From: an uncultured Clostridia bacterium
GTDB lineage: Bacteria; Bacillota; Clostridia; TANB77; CAG-508
Assembly: GCA_947624735.1 (NCBI GenBank)
Contig: CANQLM010000003.1
Coordinates: forward strand, 1-38,500
DNA: 38,500 nt
Reading direction: 5' to 3'
Shown: positions 1,446-32,017 of the stretch, one piece after another
Layout of the letters: every line of letters begins with the position of its first letter
Position numbering within the stretch: position 1 is the stretch's first letter
Position numbers and translations under genes: made by a program
Notes under the pieces: model-generated
The model's input: the letters and a program-made list of their open reading frames with translations, nothing else
What the model was told of the DNA's origin: nothing
Databases searched by the model: none

Positions 1446-1695
1446 AAAGCCTAAAGTTTAGAAACTATCCTAATAAATTTTTCTATTATCAATAATTTAA
1501 TAATTTCTCGTGCCTTGTTGTCGCATCGCAATCTAAAGATTGCTTGCTCCAGCTAACGCATATAGCTGTTGTTACGAAAACAAGTTTTCGACAACATCTT
1601 AATTCGCACTTCGTTTGGTCGCTACGCGGCGACTCTAAATTATTAAATTATTTGATAACTAATAAAAATGTAGGATAGTTTCGTGGAACGGCTTT
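1446..1695 (+). repeat. Structured interspersed repeat copy 1: long imperfect inverted repeat enclosing a multi-hairpin core
   Basis: Arms pair: aaagcc (1446-1451)/ggcttt (1690-1695), gaaactatccta (1461-1472)/taggatagtttc (1671-1682), and ttatcaataatttaataattt/aaattattaaattatttgataa. The core (about 1512-1632) is nearly identical to 31856-31985. Confidence 0.85.
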
Positions 1696-31569: not shown

Positions 31570-31755
31570 TAAAAATCCCCACATTAGCCGTAAGATTAAA
31601 TATTTTAAGAGCCTGTTTTCACAGGTGGGTGTCTTGTTGAATGCTCCTGGGTTTCTTAAATAATTATTTAAGCATACACGCCACACTCAAAGGCAGACTC
31701 CCTTTAATCTATATGTTGGTTCTAAAATTCTAATCTACACGCACCATGCAGGGCA
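31570..31755 (-). ncRNA. ssrS: Candidate 6S-like RNA
   Basis: About 180 nt non-coding. On the minus strand the ends CCCTGCAT (31753-31746) and ATGTGGGG (31584-31577) form an 8-bp stem using two G-U wobbles. Nested stems are TTTAATCT-like/AGATTAAA, GCCTTT/AGGC and ACACGCCAC-type/GTGGGTGT, with a CCTG-TGAAAA-CAGG hairpin. A U-rich tail follows. Confidence 0.5.
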
Positions 31756-31825
31756 TATTTAACTATATATAAAATATCATAAATTTAGAAAAAAATCAAT
31801 ACATATAATTATAATTGTGGTAAAA

Positions 31826-32017
31826 TATAATTAATTAAAAATATTGTAATTCTCTGTGGCTTGTTGTCGCAACGAACCTAACGGTTGTTGCTCCAGCTAA
31901 CGCATATAGCTGTTGTTGCGAAAACAAGTTTTCGACAACATCTTAATTCGCCCTTCGTTTCACTTCGGTTGGTCGCTACGCGCCACTGCCGAATTTACAA
32001 TATTTTTAATTATAAAT
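31826..32017 (+). repeat. Structured interspersed repeat copy 2
   Basis: Core shares 71 nt with 2 mismatches with copy 1 (gctccagctaacgcatatagctgttgtt[a/g]cgaaaacaagttttcgacaacatcttaattcgc[a/c]cttcgttt). Flanking arms aattaaaaatattgtaa/ttacaatatttttaatt are self-complementary but unlike copy 1. Confidence 0.85.

Follow-up and report, generated by a model that had tools for sequence, protein, structure and literature searches.

The stretch of DNA analysed here, hereafter the window, comprises the first 38,500 nucleotides of contig CANQLM010000003.1 from an uncultured Clostridia bacterium and carries two copies of a palindromic intergenic element. Copy 1 is located between secY and adk with its core at positions 1512–1632, and copy 2 has its core at 31856–31985. 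Both copies were found where the initial annotation had placed them. The cores are near-identical, as had been stated, and the longest ungapped match with at most two mismatches covers 73 nt (1544–1616 and 31888–31960) rather than the 71 nt given before. At the gathering score, the sole Rfam match in the window is a 6S RNA (RF00013, 104.8 bits) at 31572–31757 on the minus strand, which adjoins copy 2 upstream on the opposite strand. At the element itself, no Rfam match was obtained up to E=5 in ten copy-bearing loci, which agrees with the earlier statement that no named family was recognised. The element is a previously unnamed high-copy repeat that has dispersed within a single family of uncultured gut Clostridia.

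The initial annotation described a two-copy repeat. The genome of the window (G000; 1.2 Mb, 108 contigs), however, carries about 19 copies. A blastn search with the core gives 19 matches, some of which are halves of one copy or are cut at contig ends, the motif TTGTTGTCRC occurs 19 times and the covariance model R1 finds 18 copies. Across the genus, the covariance model detects between 0 and 75 copies per genome in a set of 31 genomes, 17 of which are positive. The highest counts are present in G011 (75), G026 (54), G021 (43), G002 (36), G022 (33) and G023 (28). Of 290 genomes sampled from the order, 88 contain the element (E ≤ 1e-6); all of these belong to the family of the window and they represent 17 of 45 genera. 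At most 12 candidates per genome were scored in this order-wide scan and the resulting counts per genome are floors. The exact core pattern, searched in 85,462 species genomes, is found in 43 contig stretches, all of them from metagenome-assembled genomes (MAGs) named 'uncultured Clostridia bacterium'. A phage origin was rejected, as the same pattern has no match in viral contigs. Tandem arrays of the element are also present (L073, L184 and L397). Those at L073 (G021:C7) and L184 (G002:C13) consist of head-to-tail units that recur about every 125 and 147 nt, respectively. In G300 (L397, 700–1350), an IS200-type Y1 transposase gene is immediately preceded by three head-to-tail copies with a period of about 200 nt.

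The anatomy of the element was drawn from more than 100 copies. A unit of about 140–200 bp lies between genes and consists of the core and an arm of about 25–50 nt on either side. It starts with the variable, self-complementary strand of P1, followed by C-TTGTTGTCGC, the P2 hairpin, GCTCCAWTCGC, the P3 hairpin, TTGGTCGCTACGCG and the returning strand P1'. The near-invariant strands CTTGTTGTCGC, GCTCCAWTCGC and GGTCGCTACGCG surround the two variable hairpins, and the core can be interpreted as a three-way junction with P1 as the closing stem. Neither the sequence nor the length of P2 is fixed. The first junction strand has the variants TTGCTGTCGC, TTGTAGTCGC, TTGCGGTCGC and TTGTGTGTCGC, and the opposite strand changes to match (e.g. 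CTACGCG with TTGT and CTGCGCG with TTGC). An optional hairpin module of 50 nt (..CATATAGCTGTTG..CGAAAWC..GWTTTCG..CAACATCTTA) can be seen, depending on the copy, in one or another of the three junction strands. In both window copies it is inserted between P2 and P3. Related modules are present between P3 and P1' in G005 and G030 (L049, L050, L053–L056 and L059) and between P1 and P2 in G006 (L064 and L066). Module-free copies (L041, L042 and L043) share the genome with the module-bearing window copies.

In copy 1, the outer arms of P1 are formed by TTATCAATAATTTAATAATTT (1486–1506) and AAATTATTAAATTATTTGATAA (1637–1658), and the match to the covariance model spans 1487–1658. The inner part of P1 starts with GTGCC (1510–1514), whose partner GGC.. 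begins at 1628. Alignment of the copies and the covariation over 49 of them define the remaining parts: the near-invariant junction strand TTGTTGTCGC (1515–1524), the variable, covarying P2 hairpin (1523–1547), the conserved junction motif GCTCCA (1546–1551), the optional module, here designated module I (1552–1601), ATTCGC with the P3 hairpin and TTGG (1602–1619), and the conserved junction strand GTCGCTACGC (1618–1627). Outside P1, GAAACTATCCTA (1461–1472) pairs with TAGGATAGTTTC (1671–1682) and, outermost, AAAGCC (1446–1451) pairs with GGCTTT (1690–1695). In copy 2, the outer arms of P1 are AATTAAAAATATTGTAATTC (31833–31852) and GAATTTACAATATTTTTAATT (31991–32011), and the covarying inner part consists of GTGGC (31856–31860) and GCCAC (31982–31986). 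The junction strand TTGTTGTCGC occupies 31861–31870 and is followed by P2 (31869–31891), module I (31896–31945) and P3 with the conserved GGTCGCTACGCG (31946–31982), as seen from the sequence and from comparison with other copies. All these parts are given on the plus strand. Folded as single-stranded DNA (ssDNA), each window copy is more stable than 200 of 200 dinucleotide shuffles (z = -6.6 for each).

The complementarity of the arms within each copy, which had been claimed for the two window copies, holds for the family. Over 113 copies, a copy's own arms reach a median pairing score of 57, compared with a median of 22 for a left arm combined with the right arm of another copy. Own-arm pairing amounts to 0.96 at 10–19 nt from the core and 0.89 at 20–29 nt, compared with 0.70 and 0.67 for mixed arms, and comes near the mixed-arm control beyond 30 nt. 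A weak similarity between arms extends to about 70 nt from the core. Chance complementarity of AT-rich DNA is excluded by the mixed-arm control, the distance profile and the ssDNA-fold shuffles.

The stems covary. The compensatory change in the first internal hairpin, described initially from the window copies, is seen over 49 distinct copies: in the inner part of P1 and in P2 there are 119 both-sided changes, and the covariation score of 0.536 compares with 0.181 in shuffles (reached by 0 of 500) and with at most 0.124 when the strands are slid. A single P1 pair over these copies is CG in 30, GC in 12, UA in 5 and AU in 2, with zero exceptions. For outer P1, the 28 copies whose arms align almost gap-free show 145 both-sided changes and 6 one-sided ones. 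In 78 distinct copies, outer P1 comprises 1130 Watson-Crick pairs, 2 G-U, 7 A-C, 41 other mismatches and 44 gaps. As outcomes that would speak against its proposal, the initial annotation had named a total of two copies whose flanks pair no better than shuffled AT-rich DNA, or a lack of covarying pairs; the copies are many and the covariation is decisive, both in favour of the element.

Invariant unpaired strands and covarying stems resemble a structured RNA. In addition, the copies have a mild strand bias between codirectional genes (40 sense, 22 antisense), and few of them (10) are located in divergent gaps. A cellular structured or cis-regulatory RNA, i.e. an attenuator, an mRNA stabiliser or a trans-acting RNA under RNA-level selection, would account for these features. 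RNA stems, however, usually drift via G-U pairs, for which a DNA-level process has no need. In two tRNAs, the only yardstick taken, 5 of 42 pairs are G-U. The near-absence of G-U states in P1, both among the pairs (2 compared with 1130) and among the changes (6 one-sided compared with 145), thus argues against RNA selection and for a process at the level of DNA. Furthermore, the direction of the element is not conserved, since copies are inverted in place, sister species differ in its presence at most sites, and neither a neighbour gene common to the copies nor an Rfam match was found. Selection for an RNA is therefore very unlikely. Of the closed RNA or DNA cruciform under selection that was suggested initially, the covariation is retained, the RNA version is disfavoured by the near-lack of G-U in P1 and a DNA-level process is favoured. 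Two narrower candidates were also rejected. Copies in both orientations and in every type of gap do not agree with a terminator or a riboswitch-like part that belongs to one gene. For an RNA from the antisense strand, in which A-C on the given strand corresponds to G-U, there are 27 A-C and 10 G-U at positions 13–35 of the redundant set, but only 7 and 2 once near-identical copies are removed.

The element is mobile, as it is present or absent at orthologous sites. Twelve sites of the window's genome were compared with G004, G005, G030, G006, G002 and G022. They are mostly empty in these relatives and the arms are missing there; at the 11 sites other than that of copy 1, the relatives have neither the arms nor any long hairpin. 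The clearest insertion polymorphism is provided by L202 (G026) with 201 bp and L348 (G011) with 10 bp between flanks that are 99–100% identical. A second insert of about 195–201 bp is present at L219 (G011) and absent at L349 (G026), with a 6-bp overlap, ATAAT(A/T). In both cases the inserted DNA includes the arms.

Clean insertions of 195–201 bp, the 6-bp overlap, the many intergenic and palindromic copies with AT-rich arms and the weak arm similarity out to about 70 nt are properties of a classical miniature inverted-repeat transposable element (MITE). Such an element would be non-autonomous and derived from a DDE-type insertion sequence (IS), with terminal inverted repeats and target duplication, and the central fold would be a by-product. 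A constant interior together with arms that differ within one genome, however, is the reverse of a MITE, whose transposase requires constant ends. No constant terminus was found among the copies, the search for insertion sequences having been limited to PF01797, and the termini of the copies in G011, G026 and G023 show no constant motif beyond P1. Since the stems, moreover, covary as a fold, a classical MITE is an unlikely explanation.

Copy 1 is nested in another hairpin. In G004 and G005 the gap between secY and adk contains a plain hairpin, AAGCC..GAAGCTATCTA-NNNN-TAGATAGCTTC..GGCTT, and in the genome of the window the loop of the same hairpin contains the element. Thus, the outermost arms of copy 1 (1446–1472, AAAGCC ... 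GAAACTATCCTA, and 1671–1695, TAGGATAGTTTC ... GGCTTT) are those of an older host hairpin, in whose loop the element is inserted (1473–1670). In the secY-adk gap of several species (the window, L125, L126 and L143) a hairpin is bounded by AGCCTAAAG...GGCTT; its stem sequence varies between species and the pairing is kept. The same gap in G025, G012, G018 and G028 (L137, L139, L140 and L141) holds another palindromic repeat, one around GGGACGGTCC / GGACCGTCCC.

A second kind of nesting is found in the sister species G137 and G085. In all 19 of the loci fetched first, the core with its own P1 is located between inverted arrays of the repetitive extragenic palindromic (REP) sequence GGGGTCGGTCC, with spacers of 153–201 nt. 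Five REP pairs picked for short spacing have spacers of 13–79 nt and no core. The REP has 219 sites in G137 and 272 in G085 and none in ten other genomes (seven of the genus, including that of the window, and G066, G121 and G257). The REP-borne arms differ between copies and yet pair (488 Watson-Crick, 5 G-U, 2 A-C). The same REPs flank, in inverted arrays, a gene of the REP-associated tyrosine transposase (RAYT) type of Y1 enzymes in G085 (L405) and in G137 (L410), an arrangement known for REPINs, i.e. inverted REP pairs around a spacer (PMC3116915). RAYT-type genes in G250, G256, G147 and G277 (L399, L400, L401 and L402) are flanked by inverted GGGGACGTTTC, a REP unlike that of G085 and G137.

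These observations bear on a parasite that inserts specifically into the loops of existing hairpins, host hairpins or REPINs, with the outer arms being those of the target. The empty hairpin at the site of copy 1 in G004 and G005 and the inverted REPs of G137 and G085, which occur with and without a core, are consistent with it, and IS elements that target REPs are known (PMC1525189). On the other hand, no long hairpin is present at the 11 other target sites in the window's genome or at the sites in G011 and G026. The REP-borne copies have one internal sequence in common beside the REP and are thus explained by a single capture followed by spread. Specific insertion into hairpin loops is therefore distinctly unlikely as a general rule. 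The initial suggestion of an element that inserts into hairpins already present, or lengthens them, accordingly holds for copy 1 and fits G137 and G085, but fails at the 11 other sites of the genome and at those of G011 and G026.

Orthologous copies were matched up through their flanks and compared in orientation. Of the 14 pairs with a flank identity of 92% or more, 10 agree in orientation and 4 are flipped (L046/L059, L045/L060, L196/L325 and L185/L204). In L185/L204 the arms are near-identical and the flanks alone swap sides. Five further flipped pairs have flanks of 72–82% identity, where independent insertions are possible (L034/L063, L048/L094, L026/L071, L221/L342 and L117/L061); L026/L071 represents window copy 1 and its counterpart in G006. 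The REP-borne copies L382 and L392 are orthologues whose cores point the same way; a unique 14-nt sequence, GGGCGGTTTGGCTA, belongs to the right arm in G137 and to the left arm in G085, which looks like the outcome of copying between the arms. When template switching takes place between inverted repeats, the arms are homogenised and the spacer can be inverted (PMC8604942); perfect stems have been suggested to arise and persist through this process (PMC8794818). Homogenised arms and inverted spacers together are the published footprint of this process. Template switching, and not selection for pairing alone, therefore probably keeps the arms of each copy matched.

Taken together, the element probably represents a family-wide, non-autonomous, palindromic mobile DNA that is REPIN- or MITE-like in behaviour and whose conserved core adopts a three-way junction within a single DNA strand. 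In the proposed mechanism, the element would be exposed as a folded single strand and moved, in at least one lineage, by a Y1-type enzyme. In G137 and G085, the resident RAYT may mobilise a REPIN in which the element travels as a passenger. After insertion the arms would diverge from those of other copies, but template switching would re-match the two arms of each copy and occasionally invert the spacer, flipping the middle in place. The conserved junction strands would require a separate cause, the simplest being selection for mobility through a protein that recognises the folded single strand.

Several observations weigh against this reading. P2 is less extreme than P1, with 10 one-sided and 57 both-sided changes and some G-U states. 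A target-site duplication may be reflected in the 6-bp overlap at one site, and at another 10 bp are replaced. Clean empty sites between G002 and G022 were discarded, as most of them reflect a deletion or a collapsed array and one holds a flipped remnant. Template switching is deduced from its footprint rather than observed, and published spacer inversions are far shorter. No Y1 transposase was found in the element-bearing genomes G021, G002, G022, G000, G024 and G030 (some of them with high copy numbers; MAGs 69–90% complete), and no enzyme is tied to the element in the genus of the window. In G121 and G066, which belong to the genus of G137, the core occurs without the GGGGTCGGTCC REPs despite RAYT-type genes; the repeats around these genes are not present in the arms of the element copies, as far as compared. 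An IS200 or RAYT enzyme as the general mobiliser was rejected, because Y1 matches do not follow copy number within the genus.

Compared with known systems, the element shares with REPINs and their RAYTs (PMC3116915) the intergenic location, the high copy number, inverted ends around a spacer, a single ssDNA hairpin and compensatory changes. In G137 and G085, inverted REPs flank both the element and the RAYT-type genes. REPINs, however, have conserved ends and a variable spacer, whereas here it is the core that is conserved, over 17 genera, and the ends that change. In most of the genomes tested the arms contain no such REP, and in several a Y1 gene was not detected. BOX elements of Streptococcus pneumoniae are composite intergenic repeats in which the outer modules boxA and boxC pair and the inner hairpin boxB is optional and variable in number, and they are thought to be non-autonomous parasites (PMC3049150). 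The likeness to BOX, namely outer pairing modules and an optional inner hairpin, is one of architecture and not of aligned sequences. BOX ends are conserved between copies, whereas the arms of the element are copy-specific and its module occurs in three different junction strands. Like classical MITEs such as RUP and Correia elements (PMC3049150), the element is short, AT-rich, palindromic, non-coding and dispersed by insertion, with presence and absence at orthologous sites, but it has a constant interior and variable ends. The function of integron attC sites rests on a folded single strand in which the stems vary and few unpaired features are kept. Compared on fold features alone, the element resembles them in its dependence on a folded strand with varying stems and differs in that its junction strands are conserved in sequence. 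In summary, the element behaves like a REPIN or a MITE and is built like BOX. It has neither the conserved ends and free spacer of a REPIN nor the constant termini of a MITE; thus, it is assigned to neither and set apart as a variant of palindromic non-autonomous mobile DNA.

A more far-reaching interpretation is tentative and rather doubtful: the element might represent a new class of mobile DNA. Its heritable part would be a three-way junction, folded from a single strand and carried in the loop of hairpins that change. The core would jump between palindromes or capture them (host hairpins, REPINs or its own arms), copying from arm to arm would rewrite its ends, and a hairpin module would move, at a second level, among the junction strands.

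Repeats with constant ends and a free middle are well known, and the present element is the inside-out arrangement. Its hundreds of natural palindromes allow double Watson-Crick changes without G-U and in-place inversions to be counted together. Whether covariation arises by template switching of DNA and not through RNA selection thereby becomes directly testable, which is relevant to anyone taking covariation as proof of a functional RNA. Furthermore, REPINs are shown to carry a conserved folded passenger.
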